Assembly: GCA_017889705.1 (NCBI GenBank)
Contig: JAGGAB010000007.1
Span: 62,001-126,000, forward strand
Direction: 5' to 3'
DNA: 64,000 bases
Origin: Bacillota bacterium
GTDB taxonomy: Bacteria; Bacillota; Negativicutes; Sporomusales; Sporomusaceae
Within the stretch, counting starts at the first letter, position 1, and the number at the start of each line of letters is the position of its first letter. This document shows positions 23,274-46,438 of the stretch, in pieces. The position numbers and the translations under genes were made by a program. The notes under the pieces are model-generated. The model saw only the letters and a list, made by a program, of their open reading frames with translations, searched no databases and was not told where the DNA came from.

Positions 23274-23699
23274 GTGGCTAAAGTAACAGCCGAAATAGTC
23301 GCGCAAATCATGGGGTTGGCGGCAATGAACTCCAACAGACAAATTTCCGAAATACTTTCCAAACAGGGTATAAACTTAACACATGTTACCATTGGAAAGA
23401 TTATTAAGGAAAACCGGCAAGAACGAACCGAGGCAACAAAAGAAACAATCAATGAGCATATCAAGCAGACTGTCACAACTGACCTGGATATTTTACAGAA
23501 TACCCGAGATAAGTTATATAACTGGTTTAAGGACGATAACCTGCGAATCAGTGAGCGGCTAATGTGTTTAGATCGGCTTACTAAGGTTATTGATACGAGG
23601 TTGAAGTATTCTGGCGCCAGTGAACCCGATAAGCCGGATGATAAATTTGACCAAATGACCGACGAGGAATTAGAGAAATGGATAAGCGCAAACAGTTAG
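23274..23699 (+). CDS. Putative terminase small subunit
   Basis: HTH-like N-term, directly upstream of large subunit. Confidence 0.65.
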   Translation: MAKVTAEIVAQIMGLAAMNSNRQISEILSKQGINLTHVTIGKIIKENRQERTEATKETINEHIKQTVTTDLDILQNTRDKLYNWFKDDNLRISERLMCLDRLTKVIDTRLKYSGASEPDKPDDKFDQMTDEELEKWISANS

Positions 23700-24319
23700 C
23701 CCGGGCGATTGCTGAACGCGAGAGGCGCAACCAAATGCGCGAATGGTCATCGGTTCCTTGGCGTTGGATACAAGACTGCTGTTTGACCATGGATGAAGCT
23801 GACAACGGGATGGTTAAACATTATCCCGATAAAGAGTATTTGCAACTTGTTTGTGAGGTGTGGCAGCGCGAAAACTTATTGGCAATACCAAAGACGCGCC
23901 GTATGCTGCTTACGTGGATTATGTTGGGACTGCATCTGCATGCTGGTATATTTCGACCTAATTCAGCCATATTTGTTCAGTCTAAAAAAGCAGATGATAG
24001 TGACTTTCTTATCCAAGATAAACGAATGATGTTTATTTATAATCACCTGCCGACTGAATATAATTGGCCTGAATGCGTTTCTAAACAATACAGACTTAAC
24101 TTTGACAACGGTAGTTATGTTATGGCAATAGGACAAGGGGCAGACCAGTTGAGACAGTACACCGCCTCATACGCCATGCTTGACGAATTTGCGTTCTGGG
24201 AAAGCGCAGAGGGTACATGGGGAGCGTTAAAACCTATTATTCAGGGTGGCGGCAAAGTAACACTGATAAGCAGTGCTGGCCCCGGATTCTTTCAGCGCAT
24301 TTGTGAGGGTGATATATAA
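23678..24319 (+). CDS. Terminase large subunit, ATPase half
   Basis: PKTRRMLLTWIMLGLHLH (Walker A-like), SYAMLDEFAFWESAEGTW (Walker B), TLISSAGPG coupling motif. Confidence 0.85.
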   Translation: MDKRKQLARAIAERERRNQMREWSSVPWRWIQDCCLTMDEADNGMVKHYPDKEYLQLVCEVWQRENLLAIPKTRRMLLTWIMLGLHLHAGIFRPNSAIFVQSKKADDSDFLIQDKRMMFIYNHLPTEYNWPECVSKQYRLNFDNGSYVMAIGQGADQLRQYTASYAMLDEFAFWESAEGTWGALKPIIQGGGKVTLISSAGPGFFQRICEGDI

Positions 24320-25149
24320 TGCAAGGCATAACTGAATATAAAACCCCGCAAGGTGTGCATGTCCTCCGCATTCACTATACTGCCGATCCTGATAAGCAAT
24401 CACCAGAGTGGGTTGCCGAACAGAAAAAAGGTTTAACGCAGGCACAATGGGAGCGTGAATATGAAATAAACTTTCATGTATATCCTGGCAAGCCATGGTA
24501 CGAAGAATTTCGCATGGACTTCCACGTGGCAAGAGAACCAATTCAACCAATACCAGGCAGGCCAATATTCAGAGGTTGGGACTATGGGCAGACATTTAAC
24601 CCCGCTGTCGTGTTCTGCCAGACTACGGTATTTGGTCAGTTATTGCTTTTATATCCTGAGATTAACGGGTTAAATAGCGGTCTGCATCCATTTGCGCGAA
24701 CTGTTAAATCAGAGTCGGGAACATATTTCCCTGAGAATCCTTTTATTGATTACGGTGATCCGGCAGGGAACAATCGAAGCCCTAACGACGAAAGAAGCGC
24801 AACAGATATATTGCGTACCGATTATGGGATTACTGTGTTGCCCGGGCCGGTTGCGTTTGGAACACGATCTGAGGCTATTCGTAAGCTGCTGACCACGACC
24901 ACGCCGCAAGGACAAGCGATGTTATTAATTGACCCGCGTTGTACATTTATGATTGGCGCATTTACTGGCGGCTATCATCGTAAGCAGCTTGCGTCTGGTC
25001 AGTTGTTAGAAGAACCAGATAAAAACGAATACAGTCATCCTATGGACTCTCTCGGTTATGTAGCCGCGAGCGTTTTTAAATCCGCAGGAAAAGGAACTAG
25101 TACTGAAGTCATAACCAACCACAACCCATTCAAACGAGGGAGGCGATAA
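24319..25149 (+). CDS. Terminase large subunit, RNaseH-like nuclease half
   Basis: TQAQWEREYEINF, FRGWDYGQTFNPAVVF, IDYGDPAG; TAATG overlap with the ATPase ORF. Confidence 0.85.
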   Translation: MQGITEYKTPQGVHVLRIHYTADPDKQSPEWVAEQKKGLTQAQWEREYEINFHVYPGKPWYEEFRMDFHVAREPIQPIPGRPIFRGWDYGQTFNPAVVFCQTTVFGQLLLLYPEINGLNSGLHPFARTVKSESGTYFPENPFIDYGDPAGNNRSPNDERSATDILRTDYGITVLPGPVAFGTRSEAIRKLLTTTTPQGQAMLLIDPRCTFMIGAFTGGYHRKQLASGQLLEEPDKNEYSHPMDSLGYVAASVFKSAGKGTSTEVITNHNPFKRGRR

Positions 25150-25150
25150 T

Positions 25151-25318
25151 ATGGAAACGCTGATGAACATGAAATTATGGATATTAATAACAGCCTTTGG
25201 GATTGGCTTTACCATTGGATATATTCGTTGTTATTTTGTGCTTCGAAAGATTATTTCCAGAATGGGCAAAGCAGAACTTTGGGAATGGATACAAAACGAG
25301 TGTAATAGGAGGCGATAA
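25151..25318 (+). CDS. Small membrane protein (55 aa)
   Basis: METLMNMKLWILITAFGIGFTIGYIRCYFVLRKIISRMGKAELWEWIQNECNRRR. Confidence 0.6.
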   Translation: METLMNMKLWILITAFGIGFTIGYIRCYFVLRKIISRMGKAELWEWIQNECNRRR

Positions 25319-25319
25319 C

Positions 25320-25445
25320 ATGTACAGGTTAGGTGACATCGCCAGGATTAGCAAGGTTACAAGCCTTGAACTATACCTTATGTGGCGCAGAAGTGACAGA
25401 AAAGGATTGGAGGCGATAACATGTGTCTATCACAACCAAAAGTAA
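25320..25445 (+). CDS. Small phage protein (41 aa)
   Basis: MYRLGDIARISKVTSLELYLMWRRSDRKGLEAITCVYHNQK; RBS AGGAGGCG. Confidence 0.5.
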   Translation: MYRLGDIARISKVTSLELYLMWRRSDRKGLEAITCVYHNQK

Positions 25446-25609
25446 ACACAGCCACAACTACAGTGACAAAAGCTGACACTACGTCTAATGAAGACGCCGT
25501 TGCTAATCAATTAGAGCAGGAAAAGAAACGCAGGGGATTCCAGTCCACTATAGCCAGTAAGAATGTTTCGTCTGTAGCGCCAACAGCTAAAGTGACATTG
25601 GGGAGTTAA
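25421..25609 (+). CDS. Small podoviral virion-associated protein (MCLSxPK start)
   Basis: Position next to the portal and MC-start as in podoviral small head/tail proteins. Confidence 0.5.
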   Translation: MCLSQPKVNTATTTVTKADTTSNEDAVANQLEQEKKRRGFQSTIASKNVSSVAPTAKVTLGS

Positions 25610-25613
25610 GCCT

Positions 25614-27302
25614 ATGGATGCAAAAAAAGCAATCAAATATTATGACCGCAAATTCGAAAAGGCCAAGGAAGTGCGGCAGTCTTACGAATCCACTTGGGAA
25701 GATATTATGACGTATATCGCCCCGGATTTAAAAGGCTACTTGCACACCAACAATAAAGACCGTGGCGAACGCGAGGACAGTCTTATATATGACAACACGC
25801 CAACAAAGTCGTGGCTTGATTGTTCCAGTGGAATGTTTGCGAGTATCGCGTCACCGTCCCGGCCTTGGATGCAGCGCACTATGGCAGATGATAGTTACAA
25901 CGACATTCCGGGGCTGAGGTCATGGCTTGACACTGTGACAAAAAAAGACTACAGCATATTGCACCGCAGTAACTTTTATAAGTGCAATTACACAGTGTTT
26001 GCTCATTTGTCTGCTATTGGTACGGCGCTTATTATCTGTGAGCCGGACTATGACAAAATAACTCACTGGACGGTTCCCAATATCGGCGAGTATTATCTCT
26101 TAGTTAATGGTAAGGGGATTGTGGACACCGTATTCCGCGAAATTGAATACACGGCCGAGCAGTTGAAGGGGTTATTTGGAGAAAAGGCCTTGCCAAAAGA
26201 TATTGTCAACTCGATAACAGAAGCCAACCCGACAGGCGGCAAGTACACAGTGAGACACGTGATCGAGCCGGACAGTCAAGGTGTTGTACCATTCCGTAAG
26301 CCGTGGGCGTCTGTATACTATTTGCCAGACAAAAAATATGATGATATGCAAATAATTGATGTCAAGGGCTACAAATGGCAACCGTTCGCTGCTCCGCGTT
26401 GGTATGCAAACAATAATGAGACATATGGCAAGATGCAACCAGGGCGCGTGTCACTGGGTAACTGTCAGCAGTTGTCTACAATGATCTTCGATTATATGGA
26501 TGCTGTCGACCAAGAGTTGAATCCTGCTACACAAGGACCGCCTATTACTGGTGCTATTGATAGACGACCAAACAAGCATAACATCATTGAGCCTGGCGCT
26601 GGTGGCTTGCAAGACCCGACTATCCGGCGACTGTTTGAAACTAACCCGCAATTACAGATTATGTGGGCTGCCATCCAGGACAAGCGCGAACAGATTAAAC
26701 AGGACTTTTACCTGGATTTGTTTATGCCTATTACCACTGGTGGCTATGATACCAACATGACGGCAACAGAGGTAACACAGCGGCGTAATGAGCGAATGCT
26801 GGCACTTGGGCCGGTGTTGGAAAACGTTAATACTGAGTACCTTAACCCGATTACTGAGATCGAATACAACTACGCCACTGAAGCGCAAGCCTACCCACCT
26901 ATTGAAAACTATGTGACAGAGGATGCGCTGGAGGCATTGCAGGGCGAAGAAATCAAGACCGAGTATGTCAGTGTACTGGCTCAGGCTCAGAAGATGGTTG
27001 ACCTTGACCGGATTGACACTACCTTGACCTATGCAGAGAGGTTGGCAGCACTTGATCCAACAGTGGTAATGAAGGTTAATACTATGGAGACCATTGACGA
27101 AGTTGCTAAAATGTCTGGTGCGCCTGGTAGAATGCTGCGGTCTGATGATGAAGTTAAGGAGATGCAAGAGCAACAGCGACAAGACGCGGAACAGCAGCAA
27201 ATGGTTGAGCAGGCGCAGGCAATGGCTAATGTGGCCGGGCAAGCAAGCAAGATGCAAATGGATCAGGATAATGCGCTTACTCGATTCTTGGGGGTGGAAT
27301 AG
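25614..27302 (+). CDS. Head-to-tail connector/portal protein (T7 gp8-like family)
   Basis: YYDRKFEKAKEVRQSYESTWEDIMTYIAPDL...TATEVTQRRNERMLALGPV. Confidence 0.92.
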   Translation: MDAKKAIKYYDRKFEKAKEVRQSYESTWEDIMTYIAPDLKGYLHTNNKDRGEREDSLIYDNTPTKSWLDCSSGMFASIASPSRPWMQRTMADDSYNDIPGLRSWLDTVTKKDYSILHRSNFYKCNYTVFAHLSAIGTALIICEPDYDKITHWTVPNIGEYYLLVNGKGIVDTVFREIEYTAEQLKGLFGEKALPKDIVNSITEANPTGGKYTVRHVIEPDSQGVVPFRKPWASVYYLPDKKYDDMQIIDVKGYKWQPFAAPRWYANNNETYGKMQPGRVSLGNCQQLSTMIFDYMDAVDQELNPATQGPPITGAIDRRPNKHNIIEPGAGGLQDPTIRRLFETNPQLQIMWAAIQDKREQIKQDFYLDLFMPITTGGYDTNMTATEVTQRRNERMLALGPVLENVNTEYLNPITEIEYNYATEAQAYPPIENYVTEDALEALQGEEIKTEYVSVLAQAQKMVDLDRIDTTLTYAERLAALDPTVVMKVNTMETIDEVAKMSGAPGRMLRSDDEVKEMQEQQRQDAEQQQMVEQAQAMANVAGQASKMQMDQDNALTRFLGVE

Positions 27303-27599
27303 ATGCTACCAGGTGACAGACGCAGGCAAGAGCAGAAAAAGCAAGATGAAACTGCCAAGCTTGAACGTGACAAGTTTAACGCCATGATTCAAGCGCAAAT
27401 GAATACCCCACAGGGGCGCAAGTTTGTGTATTGGGTGCTATGGTTGTTGCAATACAATCAGCCAAACCCTCACAACAGCGCACAGGCTTACCGTGTAGCA
27501 GCTATGCAGGGTGTTGCTATTGAGATACACCGGCAGATATATGGTATTGTGCCCAACGAGGTAGAAAAGATGATACGGGAAGGGGTTGAGGGTAGTTGA
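27303..27599 (+). CDS. Hypothetical phage protein downstream of portal
   Basis: ORF; position typical of a Bbp19-like small virion protein. Confidence 0.5.
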   Translation: MLPGDRRRQEQKKQDETAKLERDKFNAMIQAQMNTPQGRKFVYWVLWLLQYNQPNPHNSAQAYRVAAMQGVAIEIHRQIYGIVPNEVEKMIREGVEGS

Positions 27600-27604
27600 G
27601 ATAC

Positions 27605-27650
27605 CCGGCTATGTGAGTTAAGTAAGCGGCGAAAGGCCGTTATTTTTATT
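27605..27650 (+). repeat. Left copy of CCGGCTATG...GCCGTTATTTTTAT hairpin repeat
   Basis: Direct-read similarity with 28179..28202. Confidence 0.65.
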
Positions 27651-27665
27651 TTGGGAGTGTTGACT

Positions 27666-28178
27666 TTGGAGTTTAGAAAAGCTTTGGAATTAATGAAACA
27701 AGGCGTAGATGTTAAGCGCCCGCATTGGTCGGGATTTTGGCGACTTGAAGATGGCAAAATTATGATGTACTGCAAAGATGGCCAAGTCCTGGACTTTAGG
27801 GAAACTAAAGATACCTTGTTTACGATCTCTAGCATCCTGTCCGACGATTGGGAAGTGGCAGATGCCGTTAACAGTAAGCTTCTCAATGGAGAGATAATCA
27901 GTACGTTCACCTTTGGAGAAGCATTGCGGAACATGAAACAAGGTAACAAGGTTGCCCGTAAAGGCTGGAACGGCCATGGTATGTGGGCCGTTATGCAAAA
28001 GGGTTATCCTGATGGTATCCATATCAATAAGAATACTGCCGAAGCTACTGGAATACCGGAAGGCACCTTAATGAAGTTTCGGCCTTATTTTATGCTGTTT
28101 ACTGCGCAAGGCGATTTTGCTCATTGGGTGCCGAGCAGCAGCGACATACTTGCCGATGATTGGCAGATTGTAGAGTAA
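27666..28178 (+). CDS. Tandem DUF2829 protein, Tad2 (anti-Thoeris)-like
   Basis: Two homologous halves: FRKALELMKQGVDVKRPHWSGFWRLEDGKIMMY...LSDDWEV and FGEALRNMKQGNKVARKGWNGHGMWAVMQKGYP...MLFTAQGDFAHWVPSSSDILADDWQI; start 27651 or 27666 (TTG). Confidence 0.82.
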   Translation: MEFRKALELMKQGVDVKRPHWSGFWRLEDGKIMMYCKDGQVLDFRETKDTLFTISSILSDDWEVADAVNSKLLNGEIISTFTFGEALRNMKQGNKVARKGWNGHGMWAVMQKGYPDGIHINKNTAEATGIPEGTLMKFRPYFMLFTAQGDFAHWVPSSSDILADDWQIVE

Positions 28179-28202
28179 CCGGCTATGAGCCGTTATTTTT
28201 AT
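28179..28202 (+). repeat. Right copy of CCGGCTATGAGCCGTTATTTTTAT hairpin repeat
   Basis: CGGCT-atg-AGCCG stem followed by TTATTTTTAT. Confidence 0.65.
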
Positions 28203-28226
28203 GCCTAAATTTAAGGAGGTTCAACC

Positions 28227-28907
28227 ATGACTGACCAAATGACCGCGGCACAGGGTAACACCAACGCCGTCGAGAGCGCATTTGACTTGCAATTATTTGC
28301 AGAGGGTGATCCGGCACCAGATCCGGTTACTGATCCAGCGCCAAGTGATCCAAACCCTACACCTGACCCAACAACGGAGCCGGTAAATAATCCTGATCCG
28401 ACAACGGGTAATCCTGCTGATCCAAAGCCCGACCTGTTGGCCGACTATAAGCCAACTCTACCGGAAGGTTTCACGGCTGATGAAGCCATTATGGGCGAGT
28501 TTCTACCGCTTGCCAAGGAACTAGGTATTTCCGGTGAGCAGGCCGATAAGCTGATTGGCGTAGGCGCTCACCTTGCAGAACGGGTTATTGCTGACATTAA
28601 CCAGCAGTGTGAATCCAAGTATGGTGAAGCAATTAACGCTATTAAGGCCGAGCAGGGATCCGACTTCGAGAAGAATGTCGGGCAGGTAAACGCTCTGTTA
28701 ACCAAGTACGGCGACAAGAACACGCCAGAAGCTTTTCAAGCTGCTATGACAGCGTTGGCCGGATATGCGCCGGACGCAGTCAAGCCGCTTTATGATGCCC
28801 TAATCAAAATAGGGAAGGATGCTGCTGACCCTAGTTTTCATATGGGATCAAGCGCACCGAGTGGGCCTAAATCATTAGGCGATGTTTTATATGGAAAAAG
28901 CAAATAG
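28227..28907 (+). CDS. Putative scaffold/capsid assembly protein with Pro/Asp-rich N-terminus
   Basis: Directly upstream of the capsid gene; DPAPDPVTDPAPSDPNPTPDPTTEPVNNPDPTTGNPADPKPD. Confidence 0.65.
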   Translation: MTDQMTAAQGNTNAVESAFDLQLFAEGDPAPDPVTDPAPSDPNPTPDPTTEPVNNPDPTTGNPADPKPDLLADYKPTLPEGFTADEAIMGEFLPLAKELGISGEQADKLIGVGAHLAERVIADINQQCESKYGEAINAIKAEQGSDFEKNVGQVNALLTKYGDKNTPEAFQAAMTALAGYAPDAVKPLYDALIKIGKDAADPSFHMGSSAPSGPKSLGDVLYGKSK

Positions 28908-28922
28908 AAAGGATGATGACAA

Positions 28923-29921
28923 ATGGCAACTTTAAATGAAACTATGTGGAGTTGGAAAGACTACGCTTCACAACAAGACCCTGACGGAATGGCGGCTCGC
29001 GTAATCGATATTATGAGCGAGGAAAACGCCATCGTCGAAGATATGTATGTTATGCCCGGTAATAAGGATTATGGTCTTTTGACCTCGCAAAACGCTACCG
29101 AACCAACCGTATCAATCCGTGGTGTTAACGGTACTGTTACTGGAACTAAGGGCGCATTCAAACAACTGGAAGCCCATTGTGCACTATTTACCGCGCTTGG
29201 GCAGATCGACAAAGAACTTTATAACGCTGCTACCGACAAAAACGGCTTTCGTGCAAATGCGAATAAGCCGTTTTTTAACGCCATGCCGAAGCGCATTGCT
29301 AATGAACTGTTCTATGGCAGCAAAGCTAACGATGCACAGTCGTTTGATGGCTTGTCCCAGTTCTACAAAAGCACAACTACCGATGAGTTTGGCGAATATG
29401 TCGCTTTGGCCGGGGGAACGGGAACAGACAACCGCTCTATTTGGCTGATTGATTGGGGCGAAGATTCTTGTTGCGGCACTTATCCGAAAAACACCGTGGC
29501 TGGTTTGCAGCATACTCCATACCCAGAAACTCTTGTGGATATGCCGGATGGTTCAAAATGGCCGGCACTGCAGGACTTGTGGGAATGGCGTGTAGGTGTT
29601 GCTGTCCGCGATTACCGCAAGGTATACCGGATTGCTAACATCAGTAAGGCTGCCCTGAAGTCAATTAATACAACTAACGACACAGCACCAAACTTGTTTG
29701 ATCTTATGATTGATGCCTTGACTTGGGTTAATCCTTCGCCGCGTGCAAGGTTTTACGGTGACCGTAATATTATGTCCGCATTCACTAAGCAGGCTTTCAA
29801 TAAGTCTAACAACCTTGTGTCGATGGAAGAAATCTACGGCAAGAAGCGTGTGCCGTCCTTTATGGGTGTACCTATTCGCCGTTGTGATGCACTCGACACT
29901 GATGAAAGTCTCGTATCCTAA
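28923..29921 (+). CDS. Major capsid protein
   Basis: Position and length; NETMWSWKDYASQQDPDG...FYGDRNIMSAFTKQAFNKSNNLVSMEEIYGKKRVPSFMGVPIRRCDAL. Confidence 0.85.
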   Translation: MATLNETMWSWKDYASQQDPDGMAARVIDIMSEENAIVEDMYVMPGNKDYGLLTSQNATEPTVSIRGVNGTVTGTKGAFKQLEAHCALFTALGQIDKELYNAATDKNGFRANANKPFFNAMPKRIANELFYGSKANDAQSFDGLSQFYKSTTTDEFGEYVALAGGTGTDNRSIWLIDWGEDSCCGTYPKNTVAGLQHTPYPETLVDMPDGSKWPALQDLWEWRVGVAVRDYRKVYRIANISKAALKSINTTNDTAPNLFDLMIDALTWVNPSPRARFYGDRNIMSAFTKQAFNKSNNLVSMEEIYGKKRVPSFMGVPIRRCDALDTDESLVS

Positions 29922-29946
29922 TTAACTGAAAAGGGAGGAAAAAACA

Positions 29947-30354
29947 ATGTATGATCTTCAACTTAGTTTTACAAAGCAAACCAATGGAACGCCGAAACAG
30001 ACTATTACTGATTCGGCGGCTTCCACCAATGTATTAAACTTCGGCACCAAGGGGGCGTTTTATAAACCGGCTTATCTTCACATTCGTGTTGTAGATGCGT
30101 TTGAATCCGGTACTTCTGGCGCCACGCTTACCGCTGCATTGCAAAGCGATAGTGCCGAGGCTTTTTCAAGTGCGGCCACGATGGTTACGCCGATCAATGC
30201 CGTTGACCATGCCAACCTGACTGCCGGTTACCACAAAGTAATTCCGTTTCCTATCCAGGACACTGAGCAGTATTACAGGCTGTATTTTACCGCATCCGTA
30301 GCTATGACAGCCGGTAGTGTCGTTGCCTATATTAACGATTCGCCGGAGCTATAA
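29947..30354 (+). CDS. Bbp16-family capsid cement protein
   Basis: MYDLQLSFTKQTNGTPKQTITDSAASTNVLNFG...QYYRLYFTAS; follows major capsid. Confidence 0.75.
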   Translation: MYDLQLSFTKQTNGTPKQTITDSAASTNVLNFGTKGAFYKPAYLHIRVVDAFESGTSGATLTAALQSDSAEAFSSAATMVTPINAVDHANLTAGYHKVIPFPIQDTEQYYRLYFTASVAMTAGSVVAYINDSPEL

Positions 30355-30355
30355 G

Positions 30356-30502
30356 ATGTATAAATGTATACGTCCGGCTTATATTGACGGCAAACTTTAT
30401 GCAAAAGGTGCTGTTGTTGAAACGGTACCTAAGGGCTGGGACAAAAATTTCAGCATAACAAACCAAGAGAAGGTAAGTAAAACGAGGAAAAGGGACGGTT
30501 AA
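30356..30502 (+). CDS. Small phage protein (48 aa)
   Basis: MYKCIRPAYIDGKLYAKGAVVETVPKGWDKNFSITNQEKVSKTRKRDG. Confidence 0.55.
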   Translation: MYKCIRPAYIDGKLYAKGAVVETVPKGWDKNFSITNQEKVSKTRKRDG

Positions 30503-30526
30503 TTCCGTCCCTTCCCATTTTTATTA
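30491..30526 (+). terminator. Putative intrinsic terminator
   Basis: GGGACGGttaattCCGTCCC followed by T-rich run. Confidence 0.55.
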
Positions 30527-30540
30527 TTGAGGTGATTTCT

Positions 30541-31161
30541 TTGACTAAGTACGACATTTGTAATATTGCTTTATCAAATTTAGGCATTACCCGGTCTATA
30601 TCCAACTTCACAGATAACACCATTGAAGCCATGCTATGTGGCCGTTATTATGACTTAGCCAAAGAAATTGCCTTAACAGCTTACGAATGGAAGTTTGCCA
30701 ACATATACAACTCTGCGGCCTTGACACTAACCGAAGATGCACACGCAGAATATCAGTATGTTTATGAATATCCAGATGATTGTCTAAAGATTACCGCTGT
30801 TGGCACTGCAAGAGATTTAGGTGTATTTGAATATCCATTCGAAGTATTTGCTATTTATGATGAAAATTATGACACTGTTAAGCGCATTGGCTGCGATATA
30901 GCCGATGCAACGGCGAGCTATTTAGTCGATGTGGACGAAAATGCTATGCCGGCGGCTTTTGTTAAAGCCCTGTCGTGGGGAATTGCAGCAGAAGTTGCAT
31001 ACGGTCTTACGACTTCGCCCCAAATGGCGCAGTACGCTTCACAAATGTACGGCGTGGCGTTAAACCAGGCAATACACCGGAACTTTACCGAAGGGAAACA
31101 GACAAAGGAAATGCCTAGATACATCAGGGCGCGCGGAGGATGGTATCATGGCAAAGATTAA
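30541..31161 (+). CDS. Tail tubular protein A-like (T7 gp11 family)
   Basis: CNIALSNLGI...YDLAKEIALTAYEWKFAN; position before TTPB. Confidence 0.75.
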   Translation: MTKYDICNIALSNLGITRSISNFTDNTIEAMLCGRYYDLAKEIALTAYEWKFANIYNSAALTLTEDAHAEYQYVYEYPDDCLKITAVGTARDLGVFEYPFEVFAIYDENYDTVKRIGCDIADATASYLVDVDENAMPAAFVKALSWGIAAEVAYGLTTSPQMAQYASQMYGVALNQAIHRNFTEGKQTKEMPRYIRARGGWYHGKD

Positions 31162-33433
31162 GATGCAACCTTCGTTTGCTGCCGGTGAGCTCGCGCCTGC
31201 GCTAAGGCGGCGGACAGACCTACAAAAGTATGCAATTGGTGCCGATACAATTAAAAACATGGTTGTCTTACCACAAGGCGGCTTGCAGGCTCGAATAGGT
31301 ACAAAGTATGTAGCCTCTGTAAAAGCGCCGTTAAACAGCACCAGGCTTGTGTCATTTGCTTACAACACTGCACAGGCATACATACTTGAGTTTGGCGATT
31401 ACTATGTGCGGTTTTTCATGGACGGTGCGCAAATAGTTGTAAGCGACACGGACTCTACTCCTTATGAGGTTGCAACTCCTTACCCTGTGGCCGATATATG
31501 GAAGTTGAAATTTGAGCAGTCTGCAGATACGTTGTATATTATTCATCCAGACTATATTCCGAGGCTGCTTACCCGGACGGATCACAATGCCTGGACGCTA
31601 ACAGTTGGTGACTTTGAGTTTGGGCCACTTAATAACGAGAACAGCACTACTAAAAGAATCACGTTAAGCAATTCAGATGGTGATACATGGCTGTATGAAG
31701 GTGAAACCGTAACTGCCACAGCTTCTACAGGGCTGTTTAAGGAGGAGCATATCGGGTCAATATGGGGCATTCGTTATAGAGCGTTTAACGGTACTGAAAC
31801 TTATACCATATCTAGCGGTGTTGCATTTACAAGTGATGTCTTTAGGGTATTGGGAGACTGGACGGTAACAATTAGAGCCTATGGCGCTGACATGAATAAC
31901 TCTAACACCACTATCTATAAGTCGGTTGATGATGGATCTACTTGGTTCAAAATCAAGACTATAGTGGCAAATATCCAGGACGGCAGCACTTATTCTGTGA
32001 CCGGCTCAGAAGATGACGAATGTTTAATCAAGATTTCCAAGCCGGCTGCTGAAGATAGCGGCTCTATTACAATTGACTTATCAGGACAATATTCCTGGTG
32101 TTACTTTAAAATAACCGGTTATACCTCAACTACGGTTGCCACTGCTGTTATGCAAAATAACTTCAACAAAGGCGGTACTCCATTCAAAACATGGGCCGAA
32201 GGTGCTTGGTCAAGTTATAGAGGGTGGCAAAACTCAGTAACCTTCTTTCAAAACCGGTTGATGTTTGGCGGTAACGACAACTACCCTAATACCTATTGGG
32301 CGAGTTGCGTAGATGATTATTATAATAACGTGGTGAGCATTGACCAGGTAGAGGATGAATCAATACAAGACAGGCTGCCATCCAGGCAGGTAAACGCCAT
32401 TGAGTGGATGATACCTATGCAGGATTTAATTGTTTTAACACAGGATTCCGAATGGACTATAAGCCCGTCAACAACGACGGGTATTTTTTCGTACAAATCT
32501 AAGATAGTGAAACAGAGAGGTTCTAGTGGTTGCAATGGTAGTGTTAAACCGGTGGTTATTACCGACACGGTTATATTCTTACGGCGTAACGCCAATAAGG
32601 TCCAGGGATTAACCTACACGGATGCAAATGGCTATTCGTCATCTGAGCTATCAATCATGGCAGACCACTTATTTAGTGGGTATACCATTAAAAAATGGGC
32701 TTATCAACAGAATCCTAACTCTATTCTGTGGTGCGTGCGCTCAGATGGGGCGCTATTGTCATTTACCTATATGCCCGAGCAAGATGTATGGGCTTGGTCG
32801 CATCACGACACAGACGGCTTGTTTGAGGATGTTGAGGTTATTCCCGGAGATGCGCAGGACGAAGTATATTTCATTGTTAATCGGACAATTAACGGTTCTA
32901 CTTGCCGGTATATTGAAATGCTGGCAGAGCGGGACGTGACCAGCCGGGAAACATACTGGGGCGTGGACTGCGGAGCAAGCCAAAGCTATGATATGGCCAC
33001 AACTACGGTAAGCGACCTTGACTTCTTGGAAGGTAAATCAATCAGGGTTTTCGCTGACGGTGTTAATGTTGGCAAAAAAACCGTTTCTAGTGGCGTGATT
33101 ACTCTCGACAAAGCGGCAAGTTATGTGATGGTCGGACTTGATTATGATTGGCTTGTTAAGACGCTTAGTATTGATTCTGGTATAGACCGTAAGAAGTCGA
33201 TTAATAGCGTCACTGTATCGGTTGTAGATTCGTATGGCGGCGAAATTATGAGTAACGAAATAGACCTGCCGATTAAACTGCCTTATCCGGGCACCGAATA
33301 TTATACCGGTGACCTTATTGACGTAATCGCAAGTGCCACATGGGACTATCCCGGTCAGGTTATCATTCAGGGCACCGGTTACGATCCTATGCATATCGTA
33401 GCTATTACTCCGAAGGTGAGCTATGGAAGTTAA
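31148..33433 (+). CDS. Tail tubular protein B-like (T7 gp12 family)
   Basis: PSFAAGELAPALRRRTDLQKYAIGADTIKNMVVLPQGGLQARIGTKYVA...FFQNRLMFGGNDNYPNTYWAS. Confidence 0.85.
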   Translation: MAKIKMQPSFAAGELAPALRRRTDLQKYAIGADTIKNMVVLPQGGLQARIGTKYVASVKAPLNSTRLVSFAYNTAQAYILEFGDYYVRFFMDGAQIVVSDTDSTPYEVATPYPVADIWKLKFEQSADTLYIIHPDYIPRLLTRTDHNAWTLTVGDFEFGPLNNENSTTKRITLSNSDGDTWLYEGETVTATASTGLFKEEHIGSIWGIRYRAFNGTETYTISSGVAFTSDVFRVLGDWTVTIRAYGADMNNSNTTIYKSVDDGSTWFKIKTIVANIQDGSTYSVTGSEDDECLIKISKPAAEDSGSITIDLSGQYSWCYFKITGYTSTTVATAVMQNNFNKGGTPFKTWAEGAWSSYRGWQNSVTFFQNRLMFGGNDNYPNTYWASCVDDYYNNVVSIDQVEDESIQDRLPSRQVNAIEWMIPMQDLIVLTQDSEWTISPSTTTGIFSYKSKIVKQRGSSGCNGSVKPVVITDTVIFLRRNANKVQGLTYTDANGYSSSELSIMADHLFSGYTIKKWAYQQNPNSILWCVRSDGALLSFTYMPEQDVWAWSHHDTDGLFEDVEVIPGDAQDEVYFIVNRTINGSTCRYIEMLAERDVTSRETYWGVDCGASQSYDMATTTVSDLDFLEGKSIRVFADGVNVGKKTVSSGVITLDKAASYVMVGLDYDWLVKTLSIDSGIDRKKSINSVTVSVVDSYGGEIMSNEIDLPIKLPYPGTEYYTGDLIDVIASATWDYPGQVIIQGTGYDPMHIVAITPKVSYGS

Positions 33434-33857
33434 AACAGCGACACTTGCTGACGTGGATAACTTCGTCATGCGCCAGGATGATAAGGCAGAGATTTCAGAA
33501 CTGTACGGCTTAGAGCCATACGATGCATTAAGGCGGTCTATTATTGAATCTGAGGACTGTTGGACAGCCGCAAGTGAGGAAAAAGTCCTGTGTATTGCTG
33601 GCTGTAGTCGAAGCAGTGACGGTGGTTGTTTATGGGTATTATTCGCCGACATACAACTGTTGCCGCTGTCTTTTTTTAAAGAAAGCCGGAAACATGCTCA
33701 ATACATGCTGAAAAAGTACGGCAATTTATCAAACTACACGGCGGCAAGTAACGTGTTTGTTATTAAATGGGCGAAGTCATTAGGCTTTACGGTTGATGAA
33801 CCAATTTCCTACGGCCCAAACGGACGTTTATTTTGCAGATTCCACAAGGAGGGGTAA
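33423..33857 (+). CDS. T7 gp13-like internal virion/acetyltransferase-fold protein
   Basis: YDALRRSIIESEDCWTAASEEKVLCIAGCSRSSDGGCLWVLF...KWAKSLGFTVDE. Confidence 0.65.
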   Translation: MEVKTATLADVDNFVMRQDDKAEISELYGLEPYDALRRSIIESEDCWTAASEEKVLCIAGCSRSSDGGCLWVLFADIQLLPLSFFKESRKHAQYMLKKYGNLSNYTAASNVFVIKWAKSLGFTVDEPISYGPNGRLFCRFHKEG

Positions 33858-33858
33858 T

Positions 33859-34395
33859 ATGTGCTTGCCAGTAATCAGCGCAGTTGCTGAATTAGGATCG
33901 GCAATATCGCAATCACAGGCCAGTAAACAACAGGCTGCCATTGCAAGCCAAAACGCAAAACTAGCAGAAGAACAAGCCAACGAAGTACAGATACAAAAGC
34001 AAGCGGAATTAAACCAGATCAACGACGAAAAGCGGCAGACTATGGGAACGCAACGAGCGGCTGCGGCGGCCAACGGTGGCGACACTAGCATGGGAACAGG
34101 GCTTGGCATTTTAACCGGCACCGCCTACAAGGCCCAGGAAGATAAAAACGACACGGAATATAACTTTGAACTTCAGTCCAATGCTTACCGGCAACAGGCC
34201 AATGATTACCGCAATGCGGCAAGTATATATAAATCCAATGCCAAGAATCAGTTGTATGGTGGCATATTGGGGGCTACGGGAACATATTTCTCAAAACTTA
34301 ACCCATATAAAAAGGCTAACGGTGCCGCGTCAGCTTCTAAATCATTAAAAATACCCAAGTACGGCTCTGTAGCAAAATCAGTATATGAGTGGTGA
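33859..34395 (+). CDS. Internal virion protein (T7 gp14-like)
   Basis: MC start, Ala/Gln-rich helix ISQSQASKQQAAIASQNAKLAEEQANEVQ; position. Confidence 0.65.
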   Translation: MCLPVISAVAELGSAISQSQASKQQAAIASQNAKLAEEQANEVQIQKQAELNQINDEKRQTMGTQRAAAAANGGDTSMGTGLGILTGTAYKAQEDKNDTEYNFELQSNAYRQQANDYRNAASIYKSNAKNQLYGGILGATGTYFSKLNPYKKANGAASASKSLKIPKYGSVAKSVYEW

Positions 34396-34400
34396 TGTAA

Positions 34401-35906
34401 ATGGCAACAATACCAAGCTATGAAAGAAAGGTAGGCATTAACGCGCCGCCAACCGTTAGGGTAGACCCTACATCTGTTTCAGCTAATACTTACGGTCAGC
34501 AAGTTTTTCAGGGGATGGAAAAGGCCGCTGCAGGGATGCAAGAGTATCAGGATAAGCAGGATACTGCCAATGTAGTTGCTGCAAAAAACGATATACAGAA
34601 CCGCATGACAGATTTGTTGTATAACAAGGATAGCGGGTTGATGTTTAAAGAGGGCGCACAGGCTAATGGCTTAGGAAACACTTTTAATACTGAATTTGAT
34701 AAAAGCGCCAATGACATTCGGAAGGGGTTAAAAAACTCGAGACAACAACAGGCGTTTGACCAATATATTGCCAATTATCGCAATGGCCTAAATGTGCACA
34801 TAAATACGCATGAAGTTAAACAGAGTGATGTTGCCCTTGCGGATTCGTTTAAAAATCTTACCTATACGACATCTAACTCTCTTAGCCAGCCCGGTGTTTA
34901 TCGTAACCCAGAATTGGTAAATACGATGCTGAACGATTGGGAAAAAGGCGCAAGGGCAACAAACTATAGGAAAGATGACGAAACAATTAGTCGAATAATT
35001 GCTACTGGTCGCGGTGAATTATTAAAAAGCTCTCTTGACGTACTGTATAAACAAGACGATGTTAACGGCGCGAGAGACTTTATTAAATTATACGGCAACC
35101 AAATGGATGCCAATACTATTGCACCTTATCAGGGGTGGGTTGAAAAGAAAGACAGAAAAATACAATCTGCCAATATCGCTGATTCATTGTTTTCTAAATA
35201 TGGTGTTGAAAATGAACGGGCAGCAATGCAAGAATTGAAGGCCGCTTACGGTAATAGCCCAATGTTTGACACAATATCAACTAGCTTACAAGCAAAGTAC
35301 GTTGATGAAAGAAGATATAAAGCTGATGCTGATAAGCAAAAACAAGAAAGTATTATAGCAAGTATTTGGAAAGCCGGTTCATTGCAAGAGGCGCAGGATA
35401 TTATTGACAACGCCGATATTAAGCCTAGTCAAAAACTTTACTTATTGAATCAGGCAAAAGGCGCAATGAAAGCATTGGCTGTCCCGGCTGATAGCGAATA
35501 TAAACAGCAGGCCAAACATTGGGCTACTTACCGGCTGAATGGCGGGCTAGAAAGGCATATGCTACAACTCCGGGAATATTATACGAAGATTGGCACCGGT
35601 GAAGTAATTACGCCAGAACAGCAAACTAAATACGATTATGCCGCCTCGCAAGTAAATAACTACAAGATTTTTATGAGCAATGGCGGTTTTGATCCTGCCG
35701 CCGAAGATGCAAAGGCTGCACAAGCGCAAGAAACTGAACAGGGCATTTGGCAAGCGATCAATGATTTAGCTAGTAAAGGGCTGAAGAAGCAACAAATCAT
35801 CGACAAGATTAACGTAATTGCTCCTAAGTATGGTTATAAAGCTTCGTATTTTATTGATAATGCTGAATGGGATAAGCAAGGGAATCAAAAGGGTGGTGTT
35901 CAATAG
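34401..35906 (+). CDS. Internal virion protein (T7 gp15-like)
   Basis: Large helical protein between gp14-like and polyvalent ejection protein. Confidence 0.6.
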   Translation: MATIPSYERKVGINAPPTVRVDPTSVSANTYGQQVFQGMEKAAAGMQEYQDKQDTANVVAAKNDIQNRMTDLLYNKDSGLMFKEGAQANGLGNTFNTEFDKSANDIRKGLKNSRQQQAFDQYIANYRNGLNVHINTHEVKQSDVALADSFKNLTYTTSNSLSQPGVYRNPELVNTMLNDWEKGARATNYRKDDETISRIIATGRGELLKSSLDVLYKQDDVNGARDFIKLYGNQMDANTIAPYQGWVEKKDRKIQSANIADSLFSKYGVENERAAMQELKAAYGNSPMFDTISTSLQAKYVDERRYKADADKQKQESIIASIWKAGSLQEAQDIIDNADIKPSQKLYLLNQAKGAMKALAVPADSEYKQQAKHWATYRLNGGLERHMLQLREYYTKIGTGEVITPEQQTKYDYAASQVNNYKIFMSNGGFDPAAEDAKAAQAQETEQGIWQAINDLASKGLKKQQIIDKINVIAPKYGYKASYFIDNAEWDKQGNQKGGVQ

Positions 35907-38900: not shown

Positions 38901-40954
38901 AGGCTTTTAGTACATTACTCACAGCTAAGCGGCAAATTGAAATACAAAAGCTTGAACCAGGATATAAAGGCCCAATGTCAAAACTGGATGCTGAAGCCAT
39001 AGCAAAAAATTCCCCAAAAGAACTGCAGGAATTGACAGAGAAATTTTATCAATACAACGACAATTTGCTGGCCATTGCCGAAGATAGCGGAATTATTAGC
39101 AAAGAAACTCTTACTGTCCTGCGTGACAAGTATAAAAACTATGCTCCGATGATGCGCGACTTCGCCGACGAAGGTGCTATGACTGATGCCTTTAGTACTG
39201 GTAAAAAGATTGGTAATGTTGGCAATCCGCTCAAAAAATTAACCGAGGAAGGTTCAACAAGAACGGTTATTGATCCGCTTGAAAACACAATTAAAAACAC
39301 CTATACCGTATTGAGTGCTGCCGAACGCAATAAGGTTGCGCAAACTTTTATTCAACTGAATAAGGAAAGCGGTCTAGGTAAGTTTATTGAAAAAGTGGCC
39401 GGCACTACAAGTGATGCCAATAAAAGCATATTTACTGTCATGGTAGACGGCGAAAAACAAGCATTTCAAACTACACCGGAATTTTACCGGGCCATAATGT
39501 CGATGAATCAACAATCAAGCAATATGCTTATTAGTATGCTCAAGCCGTTTGCGCAAGCGTTAAGGGTTGGAGCAACCATATCACCTGATTTTGTAGTGAG
39601 AAACCTTATCCGCGACACTCTGACAGCCGGCTTATATTCGGAAACGGGGTTTAAACCGGTATTAGACACTATAAAAGGAGCTAAATCATTAGCGACTAAC
39701 AAGGAATTGGCTTATGAGTTCAAGGCGTCCGGCGCTCCGTTATCGGCTTTTGTTGGCCTTGATCGGTCAAGTGTTGGCAGTATGCTCGATAAAATGGGTG
39801 GCGGCAGTGAGTGGCGCAAATATAACCCGTTAACCTACATTGAAGCCGCATATCAAGGTGCTAGGAAAGTATCAGAAGCGGCAGAATCAGGCACTAGGGT
39901 GCGGGAATTTGAACGAGCCAGACAACAGGGAGTAAGTATTGAAGAAGCGGGGTTATTAGCCAAGGATGTTACTCTTGACTTTAGCCGATCCGGTACTATT
40001 GGTAGACAGATTAACCAAATAGTGCCGTTTTTTAATGCCGTTTTGCAGGGTGGAGATAGGTTTTTCCGGTCATTCAAGGATAACCCAGCAAGAACAACGG
40101 CTTTTGCGCTTACCTATATTACCCTTCCTAGCGTAGTAACTTGGCTTATGAACCATGACCAAGAGTGGTATAAAGAGCTGCCGGATGACGTGAAAAATTC
40201 AAGTTGGTTACTTGAACACAACGGAACTATCATTCGTATACCCAAACCGTTTGAGCCTGGCATTGTTTGGGGTTCATCAATTGAACGGGCATTAGACCAA
40301 ATGTTTAACGAGGATAAAGATGCCGTTACGCAATGGGCTAAGTACGCTCTTGACGGCTTTGCCCCAAGTATTATGCCGACTTTAGCAGGGCCGCTAATTG
40401 AATGGATAACAAATTACAATTTCTTTACCGGCAAGCCTGTCGTTGGCAGAAAAGAGCAAGGCTTACCTGACGAACTTCAATATAATGCATATACTTCCGA
40501 GATGGCAAAGTCGTTAGGTAGCGCAACCGGTACTTCCCCAATGAAGATAGACAATACCATTAATGGGTATACTGCCAGCGCCGGTAAGTTCTTAGTGGGA
40601 CTTACGGACAATTTAATAGGCAACCCCAAAGAATTGCCTGCTAAGACAATGTCGGAGTTGCCCGGTATTCGTGGATTAACTTATACGCCGCTTAAAAATC
40701 CGCAATCGGTCGAAGAATTCTATAATAAACTTGAAGAAGTCGAAAAGACTTACAACGCATCTGGTAAGAAAGGCAATCCTCCTGCAGAAGTCAAGAAAAT
40801 GCGGCAGAATGCAGAAAGAATCAAGGACCTTAACAAAGAAAATCGCAACATTACTAATGACGATAAACTGACCCCCGAGCAGAAGCGGCAAAAGATTGAC
40901 ACCAATGCAGCAAAAGTATTGCAGATTGCCAGAAAAGCAATAGGGAAAAATTAG
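35906..40954 (+). CDS. Giant (1682 aa) polyvalent internal virion/ejection protein: NlpC/P60 + PBECR-like nuclease + HEVGH zincin + LPD38-like region
   Basis: NlpC/P60 GKPYELGANGFDATDCGKFTQDVF...THVGIYAGEGKVLQAG; SFYWGNKKEGIKHIIDRR...; AHEVGHLVDAALGL...AEGIAEF; GTG start overlapping upstream TAG. Confidence 0.8.
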   Translation: MGAYEDMMSGTAEIPNQPVDKGWLGNAFDDVETVLSNYAIGAYQGGREVVTEGNRLAESNPLALTGTPMQDGITNAPAPQQTEEQQQAGALYKEATGNFGEETIKAPLGVAGLVNPVAGAAYLPFLAHDVGKSYEKGGVGQAARDLTYGQAVDFASQPNLAQQFKQKPVSTAANAAMSVLPMALLGRGLYDSVARIPKVNEKGIPINEDIQRQIADDFNSVQEPILAPTTAGADIITIGEKQLGKPYELGANGFDATDCGKFTQDVFAEKGITLEKRTADGQYGQLEQEGKTFEDAAQLQEGDLVFWDVPSNRERWKPSDDPNAVNMDGEAYKGITHVGIYAGEGKVLQAGSRGVSYMDLDTYPVVGYGRAVDSNTTGRVYASRDKAERYNERNIDDDIRINEDLFKSKDFWEMTKEEYEKVQGDRNSLFDETQVAENIQRGTEAIDRVINNQIDVNDAMHRPDLGSISFYWGNKKEGIKHIIDRRTAQGYDGNAIARKMVDVIANGEAGEVYGPEGGHRVNLSYDGHTAVLSLFKHGDKQTWLLTGWENYKEAPGATNGGNGPFGATRFEPMRTRLETVAETSSKININQKNSKVNGKQSHKQIIEQALKTGRKVSKDVLKDYPDLVEKYPGIEYSLTKGAVSESMRSDMLNRAHEAAMNNDFETAYTLAKQSGDPAWENAYKLLKDTDGGEVPPAPRLGGDVKGKYDGKNITMKELLNRVNDIFAPIRTGRIGHKGVEGFVNHGTGIIRTKDYGDLNVAAHEVGHLVDAALGLRKEPAFDAEFKKIVHERFGEGAYAPEQVRAEGIAEFTKDYINNPEKAKQNFPNYFAAFEEALSKNADVRARVNEFKDMVQAWNNQSPEARGRGAVSFAGDNKFETLKDNAKSMAYKAYEAFFDDKVELARFTSEIEKQLGRKLEFEQNPYKKARMVQNSSLARAEMLVSDSNPELVQATLNKLYNGKLEHAVTIREIVEGLNRKTLNEKYPEYLKNGNFKTWQQAFSTLLTAKRQIEIQKLEPGYKGPMSKLDAEAIAKNSPKELQELTEKFYQYNDNLLAIAEDSGIISKETLTVLRDKYKNYAPMMRDFADEGAMTDAFSTGKKIGNVGNPLKKLTEEGSTRTVIDPLENTIKNTYTVLSAAERNKVAQTFIQLNKESGLGKFIEKVAGTTSDANKSIFTVMVDGEKQAFQTTPEFYRAIMSMNQQSSNMLISMLKPFAQALRVGATISPDFVVRNLIRDTLTAGLYSETGFKPVLDTIKGAKSLATNKELAYEFKASGAPLSAFVGLDRSSVGSMLDKMGGGSEWRKYNPLTYIEAAYQGARKVSEAAESGTRVREFERARQQGVSIEEAGLLAKDVTLDFSRSGTIGRQINQIVPFFNAVLQGGDRFFRSFKDNPARTTAFALTYITLPSVVTWLMNHDQEWYKELPDDVKNSSWLLEHNGTIIRIPKPFEPGIVWGSSIERALDQMFNEDKDAVTQWAKYALDGFAPSIMPTLAGPLIEWITNYNFFTGKPVVGRKEQGLPDELQYNAYTSEMAKSLGSATGTSPMKIDNTINGYTASAGKFLVGLTDNLIGNPKELPAKTMSELPGIRGLTYTPLKNPQSVEEFYNKLEEVEKTYNASGKKGNPPAEVKKMRQNAERIKDLNKENRNITNDDKLTPEQKRQKIDTNAAKVLQIARKAIGKN

Positions 40955-41190
40955 TCAATCATTATACCATGTGACCCCTTGGGGCGTAATCCTAAACACA
41001 TCAAAACTATCATTATTACAACAAAGAAAGCTATCATCATAAATGTTTCAGTTGAACTTTGCGCCCCACTGCGGTTACAACGTAGTTGCCTGGCTAAATC
41101 GGAAAACCCGTTAATAAATGCGCCAATTATGCCAAAGGCCATTATTATTCCAAGGGGTATGCTGATTATGTAATAAATTTTCTCAAACAT
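40951..41190 (-). CDS. Small two-TM membrane protein on the reverse strand (candidate moron)
   Basis: MFEKIYYIISIPLGIIMAFGIIGAFINGF...TFMMIAFFVVIMIVLMCLGL; RBS GGAGGGATACT before ATG 41190. Confidence 0.65.
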   Translation of the reverse strand: MFEKIYYIISIPLGIIMAFGIIGAFINGFSDLARQLRCNRSGAQSSTETFMMIAFFVVIMIVLMCLGLRPKGSHGIMID

Positions 41191-41258
41191 AGTATCCCTC
41201 CACAATTAATTATATCACCAACAAAGACGCCTAGCGCGTCTATTTTTACGCAAAGGAG

Positions 41259-41600
41259 GTGTTCAACATAATAACACCAGCCAATAAAGACCTTCCGGTA
41301 ATAATTAAGGGCACGGTTTACGATCCAGTGCTAACCATTACTGTCAACGGCGTGGCAAAGGATTTGGCAGCCTGCACCGCTACGCTGAATATCACCAAAA
41401 GTGCGACCGACACTGACAGCCTGTTAGCACTCACTGAAACAAGCGGCCTAACACTAGGAACTGATGGAACTATTGAAATTGAAATGCAGGAAACGACTAC
41501 ATCAAGTCTACCCGTTGGGATGGCTCATTATGCGCTTGATGTGGTCGAATCAGGCGACACTTTCCGATACATGGAAGGGAATATACCTATAAGGAGTTGA
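41259..41600 (+). CDS. Phage tail/appendage protein (GTG start)
   Basis: Beta-rich protein; RBS AAAGGAG; position. Confidence 0.55.
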   Translation: MFNIITPANKDLPVIIKGTVYDPVLTITVNGVAKDLAACTATLNITKSATDTDSLLALTETSGLTLGTDGTIEIEMQETTTSSLPVGMAHYALDVVESGDTFRYMEGNIPIRS

Positions 41601-41604
41601 TAAC

Positions 41605-42192
41605 ATGGCTAAAGATGTGATTGTGGTCGAATTAAGCACGGCTGATAAGCGGATAGCAAGAACAGTAACTGCCAACACAACAGCAGCGGCAGAGAGTGCC
41701 ACGGCTGCGGCAACCAGTGCGGCTAATGCGGCGACAAGCGAGACTAATGCGGCAACCAGCGCAACAAGTGCAGCTACCTCAGCGAGCTCGGCATCTACTT
41801 CGTTGGCTACTATGGAAACAACATTATCTACTGCGATAACAACAGCAACCAATACAGCAACAACGGCAGCGACAGCAGCAGCGCAAAGCGCAACTGAGGC
41901 GGCACAAAGCGCGGCGCTGGCACTAGGCGCAGAGGCCGAGGCGTGGAGTGCAACAACTACCTATAATTACCCGGATGTAGTTGCCTATACAGACGGTTAT
42001 GCCTACCGGTGCATAGGAACTGCGGTGCTTGGAGACATACCGCCAGATAGTGCTAACTGGGTAAGGGCCGCATGGGTAGCAAATGATTTTTTTGACATTG
42101 ACGAAGATGGCGACTTAATGCCGGCGTTAAGCCCGACATACTCAGCAGATTTTGAACTTGACGAAGATGGCGACATTATGCCAAAAGAATAG
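41605..42192 (+). CDS. Tail fibre-like protein with Ala/Thr/Ser repeats, carbohydrate-binding-like segment and DEDGD repeats
   Basis: ATSAANAATSETNAATSATSAATSASSAST; EAWSATTTYNYPDVVAYTDGYAYRCIG; two DEDGDxMP motifs. Confidence 0.65.
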   Translation: MAKDVIVVELSTADKRIARTVTANTTAAAESATAAATSAANAATSETNAATSATSAATSASSASTSLATMETTLSTAITTATNTATTAATAAAQSATEAAQSAALALGAEAEAWSATTTYNYPDVVAYTDGYAYRCIGTAVLGDIPPDSANWVRAAWVANDFFDIDEDGDLMPALSPTYSADFELDEDGDIMPKE

Positions 42193-42202
42193 GAGGTAAC
42201 TC

Positions 42203-43222
42203 ATGGCTGAAAGAAAATATGTCCCTAGAAGTAACGCGGATGGCGGCGTGGGGAAAGCAAGTAAGCATTTTGCCGATGGGTACATAGATGATTTATATGT
42301 CGAAAATTTAACGGCTACCGGCGATGTTAATGCGGTTGGCGTAACCGCGACTGCTTACACCGGCGTAACCGGATCAATGGTTGCAAATACTCCTACTGGC
42401 AATATAACATCAACTACAGTTCAAGATGCAATAAATGAATTAGACATAGAAAAAATTGCAAAACCATCTAGTCCATCTGTAGGTATGACTTTGATTTTTA
42501 ATGGAACCGACTGGGTAACATGGAATCAGATGGTTGGTCGCAATAAATTAATTAACGGGAACTTTGCCGTAAATCAGGAGGGTGTTTCAGGAACAGTAAC
42601 GCTTACTGCAGGAACTTACGGCCACGACGGCTGGAAAGCAGGTTCTAGTGGTTGTACTTATACCTTTGCCACCGCAGAAAATGTAACAACCATAACAATT
42701 ACAGCAGGCACTTTACTGCAAGTTGTCGAGGGCATAAACCTACAAAGCGGTACACACGTATTGTCCTGGACTGGTACAGCAACGGGGCGTATAAATAGCG
42801 GTAGTTATAGCGCAAGCGGTGTAACTGGAACGGCAACAGGTGGTACAAATTTGACTGTTGAATTCGGTACAGGAACATTAAGTAAGGTGCAATTTGAAAA
42901 AGGTTCTATAGCCACCGTGTTTGAGGAAAGACCGTATGGATTAGAGTTAAATCTATGCAAGCGGTATCTCGAAATAATTAGTATATCGCAGCGAGGATAT
43001 TCTGTTGGTGGAAATTATATTTATGGTATACCTATAAATTGGACGGTTCAAAAAAGAACCACTCCAACTGTTACCAATACTGGATATACAGATAGAACCA
43101 ATATATCAACGGTTTCGATATCGCTGCAAACAGTTTATGGTGCTAGATACACGGTAACTGTTGCTGCTACTGGTACATATTCGTCAACGGAAGAAATCAT
43201 TAAAGCGGACGCAAGACTGTAA
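42203..43222 (+). CDS. Tail fibre/receptor-binding protein
   Basis: KHFADGYIDDLYVENLTATGDV...; position after fibre-like ORF. Confidence 0.65.
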   Translation: MAERKYVPRSNADGGVGKASKHFADGYIDDLYVENLTATGDVNAVGVTATAYTGVTGSMVANTPTGNITSTTVQDAINELDIEKIAKPSSPSVGMTLIFNGTDWVTWNQMVGRNKLINGNFAVNQEGVSGTVTLTAGTYGHDGWKAGSSGCTYTFATAENVTTITITAGTLLQVVEGINLQSGTHVLSWTGTATGRINSGSYSASGVTGTATGGTNLTVEFGTGTLSKVQFEKGSIATVFEERPYGLELNLCKRYLEIISISQRGYSVGGNYIYGIPINWTVQKRTTPTVTNTGYTDRTNISTVSISLQTVYGARYTVTVAATGTYSSTEEIIKADARL

Positions 43223-43233
43223 GGAGGGAATAT

Positions 43234-46432: not shown

Positions 46433-46438
46433 AATGAG
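46433..46438 (+). other. attR core AATGAG (right prophage/sigK junction)
   Basis: Matches attL core; frame continues NEITLIDVLG. Confidence 0.85.

Follow-up and report, generated by a model that had tools for sequence, protein, structure and literature searches.

Which kind of virus particle is encoded by the element that interrupts sigK in a Sporomusa-like genome, and how would that particle cross the envelope of its host? The element lies in a stretch of 64,000 nucleotides (nt), hereafter the window, which is part of contig JAGGAB010000007.1 (C36, 229 kb) of assembly GCA_017889705.1, a genome of 5.0 Mb in 154 contigs. The host is Sporomusa or close to it; Sporomusa are diderm, endospore-forming Negativicutes. 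sigK is split in the window by an insertion of 42,522 bases between two copies of AATGAG (a 42.5-kb prophage), and with its large serine recombinase and direct-repeat core the insertion is a sigK (skin) element. Very probably the element is a temperate, short-tailed phage that has integrated into the sigK gene of a spore-forming diderm, and the particle is best named, by homology, a virion of the BPP-1/epsilon15 type that carries a T7-type ejection set. Features are collected in Table 1; loci, genomes and contigs used for comparison are given by our own labels.

The virion module looks complete and combines a PF20911-type capsid and a cement protein with a PF12236 portal, an adaptor and a nozzle, as in the BPP-1/epsilon15 type. 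Among PDB structures, the capsid matched BPP-1 (3j4u, E=7e-62) and epsilon15 (3j40, E=7e-56), with 3j4u, 3j40 and 8cjz all at E<=4e-54. The virion of entries 8cjz, 8ck0 and 8ck1 is, we assume, that of Cobetia phage Carin1, and an annotated Carin1 record was among the sequence matches. The window phage shares portal, capsid, cement, adaptor, nozzle and gene order with BPP-1, epsilon15 and Carin1, but at only ~30–35% identity, and it is unlike them in having a serine recombinase at sigK, a spore-forming diderm host and a large terminase (TerL) made of two genes. The gene order of the module recurs in L027, L028, C150, G012, G003 and G021.

A preliminary description of the window, made from the letters alone, had given the gene order and coordinates of this module, and family and structure matches along the module agreed with it. 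The MC-start small protein that it listed is an open frame (MCLSQPKV...), and similar MC-start open reading frames (ORFs) precede the portal in L015 and L028. The homology of the connector and of tail tubular proteins A and B, which it had put forward as a test, was upheld by the matches to PF12236/8ck0, 8ck1_E and 8ck1_A. It had also described the module as free of tape-measure, sheath and long-tail tube genes; PHROGs scans of the module proteins indeed gave no convincing match to tape-measure, sheath or tail-tube genes, the sole tape-measure line being a low-complexity one (E=0.28) to the Pro-rich N-terminus of the scaffold. TerS had no family match in library scans and is named by position; its same-place homologues are 70% identical in L027 and 44% in G004.

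Downstream of the nozzle lies a set of genes resembling the T7 ejectosome (gp14–gp15–gp16), with which it shares gp13- and gp14-type families, a helical middle protein and a giant last protein carrying a peptidoglycan hydrolase domain. The hydrolase is of the SLT type in T7 and of the NlpC/P60 type in the window, where the giant protein, unlike that of T7, also has a PBECR1 nuclease and an LPD38 domain. The likeness to gp15 is positional. The AlphaFold2 model of the gp15-like protein was all helical (predicted local distance difference test score, pLDDT, 73), and its 41 viral matches at E<=0.001 were accompanied by one internal virion protein B at a weak E=0.003, so that fold and position offer a weak basis for the name. 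Of the names proposed earlier, gp13-like and gp14-like stand by family matches and gp15-like weakly, by helical fold and position; the label "T7/BPP-1-like" was right in outline, the ejected core being of T7 type, but the capsid and portal are those of BPP-1/epsilon15 and not of T7. It is scarcely credible that the module encodes a canonical virion of the T7-like (Autographiviridae) kind: the gp13- and gp14-like families and the layout of the core proteins would fit, but the matches of capsid, cement and portal are to BPP-1, epsilon15 and 8cjz/8ck0, no T7 capsid or portal was among the structure matches of the window capsid and portal, and the phage has a serine recombinase and a repressor. 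Membership of Autographiviridae was rejected at the family level, since the capsid and portal are not of T7 type and no RNA polymerase match was found among the window ORFs scanned.

The giant protein contains an HEXXH motif (HEVGH in the translation), and over its C-terminal 980 residues it shares 59% identity with its counterpart in G003. The hydrolase type varies among relatives, with NlpC/P60 plus PBECR3 in C150 and SLT in G003 and G021. PBECR1, a toxin-like nuclease domain, occupies residues 459–553; PBECR3 stands in its place in C150. This swap suggests exchangeable effector domains delivered with the DNA, and we infer that the giant protein joins a conserved body, which serves delivery, to wall-cutting and effector heads that can be exchanged.

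The preliminary description had proposed that the ejection set suits a diderm host, a reading supported by the distribution of the portal family. PF12236 passed the cut-off in 34 of the 381 genomes of Negativicutes and in 1 of 399 Bacillota genomes, the latter an even sample drawn from the phylum of Paenibacillus and Maledivibacter and counted once (Fisher's test p ~2e-11, if that sample holds an estimated ~6 Negativicutes). The single match in the Bacillota sample had the contig position and score of a Negativicutes genome, G133. Among the matches listed, cultured relatives of the portal and nozzle had Gram-negative hosts almost entirely. Podophages of Gram-negative hosts have been described as in need of an ejectosome, the tail being too short for the envelope (PMC11440229). 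Within Bacillota the T7-type ejection set follows the outer membrane, so that the part of ejectosomes in crossing the envelope can be tested in a diderm outside the Proteobacteria.

TerL had been read as one gene, but it consists of two, for a packaging ATPase (TerL-N) and a packaging nuclease (TerL-C), whose frames overlap by one base as TAATG. TerL-N aligned with the ATPase region of T4 gp17 (residues 99–289 or 124–314, by entry numbering; E=5e-7 to 1e-5), and Walker A/B-like and coupling motifs can be read in it. TerL-C aligned with the C-terminal parts of fused TerLs (L145 and L148) and probably also holds ATPase subdomain II. Fused homologues of 508–512 amino acids (aa) in G337 and G346 align with TerL-N and then TerL-C, and the halves of relatives map consecutively on phrog_2, N ending near 415 and C starting near 421–430. 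The ATPase and RNase H-type nuclease motifs are shared with the one-gene TerL, T4 gp17, but are distributed over two genes cut between the ATPase and nuclease halves. The Asp of nuclease motif I is present in 35/35 and that of motif II in 34/35. An AlphaFold2 model of TerL-C from three sequences reached pLDDT 30, and its fold is therefore assigned from the motifs and the fused homologues. Since the domain limits that we take for T4 gp17 put the cut near the boundary of ATPase subdomains I and II, TerL-N and TerL-C probably must bind each other.

A single TerL protein could still be made if the split were a sequencing or assembly frameshift, a programmed frameshift or an intron, and the one-base overlap in the window would allow it. 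We consider this very unlikely, as the halves are separate genes in 26 non-redundant loci, TerL-N is a gene of its own in L027, L015 and others too, and independent contigs show the split with junctions that range from −23 to +1353 nt, some in the same frame with a single stop between, and other ORFs sometimes intervene. Searches with Rfam at the gathering cut-off found no intron in 18 split TerL loci, and in L027 a strong ribosome-binding site precedes the C gene. An intron as the cause of the split was rejected on the lack of Rfam introns and on the short gaps. In the distant relatives L171, L175, L178, L179, L185 and L188, the TerL genes are separated by at least one and up to several small, unrelated ORFs, including a methyltransferase-like ORF in L179.

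Both halves had ratios of nonsynonymous to synonymous polymorphism (pN/pS) of 0.24–0.37, with synonymous sites near saturation. The TerL tree, whose root is not fixed, required at least three changes between split and fused states; TerL was fused in the cultured relatives checked. By these comparisons, the two-gene TerL is conserved, under purifying selection and common to a broad clade of uncultured phages. It is likely that a large, old clade of such phages, represented here by the sigK podovirus, packages its genomes with a motor in which the ATPase is one polypeptide and the nuclease another; the subunit that cuts could then bind to the motor and leave it independently. A C-terminal nuclease domain has been stated to be a universal feature associated with TerL (PMC7824862), to which the two-gene TerL is an exception. 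No description of a split terminase was found in the literature searched, coverage of which left out most subscription journals. The arrangement would let packaging and cutting be separated by experiment.

At the integration site, in-silico removal of the element and one AATGAG copy gave an open sigK frame reading ...GNEITLIDVLG, with the junction residues of intact Sporomusa-genus sigK. The joined product has 225 aa, against 237 aa in the same-genus genome G011; relative to same-genus sigK, 12 residues (HRLTAREKWVLE, by comparison with G011) are gone from the C-half at the start of region 4, a loss of 36 nt in frame. An error of assembly could account for the deletion, but compared with the C-halves of other split sigK genes, too, this one is ~36 nt shorter.

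The damaged sigK would fit a defective, domesticated element in which virion genes persist and no infectious particle is made, like the skin element of B. subtilis, as would the sigK elements of G010, G016 and G004 in the same order, which are small remnants of 3.7–5 kb with the recombinase alone recognised. Such a fate is nevertheless unlikely for the window element. Those of its genes for morphogenesis, lysis and regulation that were examined have open, full-length frames (the endolysin, recombinase, repressor and anti-repressor frames are all open), the virion genes show purifying selection relative to L027, and two metagenomes contain a close relative of the phage (L027, L029). Several points weigh against the preferred reading, a functional temperate podovirus of a diderm host. 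Because the C-half of sigK is short of 36 nt in frame, excision may not restore a working sigma-K, which may be dead in this host even afterwards, and the deletion argues against the element acting as a functional developmental switch here. The viral-contig search yielded no viral contig with the excised phage attachment site (attP) and none with the left junction. IMG/VR contig 3300033406_000375 is 100% identical to the window phage but may come from the same sample and not be independent evidence. The gp15-like protein matched PDB entries neither in sequence nor in fold. The Negativicutes contrast is strong but of uncertain exact size, since the Negativicutes share of the sample is estimated.

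The recombinase is 59–74% identical to recombinases that six genomes of the order carry beside sigK, and ~29 of its best 80 genome matches lie within ~120 bp of a sigK N-half and convergent with it, which places it in a sigK-specific lineage. The podovirus virion and its place in sigK, as first described, are supported, with a large serine recombinase of that lineage as the integrase. Among 28 genomes of the order, 13 have an intact sigK that scores above the family cut-off; in many others the gene is interrupted. Skin elements and the published Alicyclobacillus sigK phage MMB025 share with the window element the large serine recombinase beside the sigK N-half, the short core and the interrupted sigK. 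MMB025 is contractile-tailed (PMC13141910), whereas the window phage has a short-tail module, known here from its genes. The preliminary contrast with other sigK elements holds for MMB025 and for the 51-kb sigK element of G021, a myovirus that has genes for a sheath, a tape measure and a baseplate, but not for the 58-kb sigK element of G017, a Sporomusa (L046–L048, G017:C1:1679000-1738999). The latter carries a different, unrelated podovirus-like module, with a phrog_1216 portal and a 2343-aa virion protein whose N-terminus is endolysin-like. By gene content, the window element is therefore not the only one to combine a short tail with a place in sigK. PF12236 was found in 1 of 30 genomes with related recombinases, on another contig than its sigK N-half. 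sigK is a docking site for phages whose virions are unrelated (within a single order, a myovirus and two podoviral types) and which only the integrase ties together. The sigK elements of C. difficile and B. subtilis are independent integrations at different sites (PMC5025042). In G012 (L054–L055, G012:C1:931000-963000), sigK appears to be interrupted twice, with two insertion sites in one gene: an N-part to residue 116, a piece from residue 109 and a second C-half from residue 140.

From these data, the following course can be proposed. The podoviral module would have been exchanged into a lineage whose defining trait is the sigK integrase and not the virion. The recombinase would join attP and the bacterial site attB at AATGAG, a reaction suggested by the observed anatomy of the junctions. 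On induction, TerS and the two-part TerL, with separate ATPase and nuclease, would fill an epsilon15/BPP-1-type procapsid through the PF12236 portal, as in homologous systems. The tail would consist of adaptor and nozzle only. The gp14-, gp15- and gp16-like core proteins would be kept in the head and ejected first, and by analogy with T7 the NlpC/P60 domain of the giant protein would cut peptidoglycan, allowing a channel to span outer membrane, wall and inner membrane.

Table 1 Features of the sigK element and its junctions in the window.
Feature	Position	Strand	Basis
sigK N-terminal half, including left core	3485–3916	+	TIGR02846 positions 3–145, 240.8 bits
Left attachment core AATGAG	3911–3916	+	identical 6 bases at 46433–46438
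Large serine recombinase (integrase), sigK-specific lineage	3947–5512	−	PF00239, PF07508, PF13408
CI-like repressor	6964–7908	−	phrog_4 E=9e-41
Anti-repressor	8293–9009	+	phrog_63 E=2e-52
Two exonuclease-type recombination genes	11798–13088	+	phrog_298 E=3e-18, phrog_10477 E=4e-27
DNA methyltransferase-like	14253–15050	+	phrog_56 E=6e-66
Replication initiation protein	15063–15944	+	phrog_16167 E=1e-57
RusA-like resolvase	16812–17267	+	phrog_34 E=2e-15
Probable TerS	23274–23699	+	position before TerL
TerL-N, packaging ATPase encoded alone, 213 aa	23678–24319	+	phrog_5989 E=2e-8
TerL-C, packaging nuclease encoded alone, 276 aa	24319–25149	+	nuclease motifs; alignment to fused TerLs
MC-start small protein	25421–25609	+	open frame
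Portal / head-tail connector	25614–27302	+	PF12236 E=2e-103; PDB portal 8ck0 E=4e-110
Scaffold/protease-like	28227–28907	+	phrog_458 E=1e-19
Major capsid protein, BPP-1/epsilon15 type	28923–29921	+	PF20911 E=2e-80
Capsid cement protein (Bbp16-like)	29947–30354	+	8cjz_B E=4e-15; 3j4u_H cementing protein E=1e-14
Tail tubular A / adaptor	30532–31161	+	phrog_394 E=5e-39; 8ck1_E E=8e-32
Tail tubular B / nozzle	31148–33433	+	phrog_376 E=1e-183; 8ck1_A E=2e-157
gp13-like	33423–33857	+	phrog_308 E=2e-29; PF11090 below cut-off (E=0.002)
gp14-like ejection protein, starts MC at 33859	33859–34395	+	PF24072 E=2e-8 (above cut-off); phrog_418 E=4e-27
gp15-like helical internal protein (weak)	34401–35906	+	phrog_1044 E=9e-18
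Giant ejection protein, 1682 aa	35906–40954	+	NlpC/P60 PF00877 E=7e-13; PBECR1 nuclease PF18809 E=1e-6; LPD38 PF18857 E=8e-43
Tail fibre region	41259–43566	+	fibre-like ORFs 41605–42192, 42203–43222; phrog_38058 E=8e-7, phrog_4492 E=4e-30
Endolysin (amidase)	44483–45043	+	PF01510 E=3e-10; phrog_5867 E=8e-37
Right attachment core AATGAG	46433–46438	+	direct repeat of left core
sigK C-terminal half with 36-nt in-frame deletion	46439–46684	+	TIGR02846 140–226 (match from 46433)

No sigma-E promoter was found upstream of the recombinase by a simple pattern search, and a search of genome contigs with the capsid alignment gave no match. A tRNA-Tyr (gta) gene lies within the prophage at 21596–21687. 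Portal and nozzle relatives also occur in BK063671.1 (vir555), a viral genome assigned to Methanomicrobiales (archaea). The same assembly holds a second, related short-tailed phage module (G000:C150, L043, 19286 bp) with a portal 56% identical to that of the window phage; its values are identical to those of L027 and L029, viral contigs that come from two metagenomes, and it too has a two-gene TerL.

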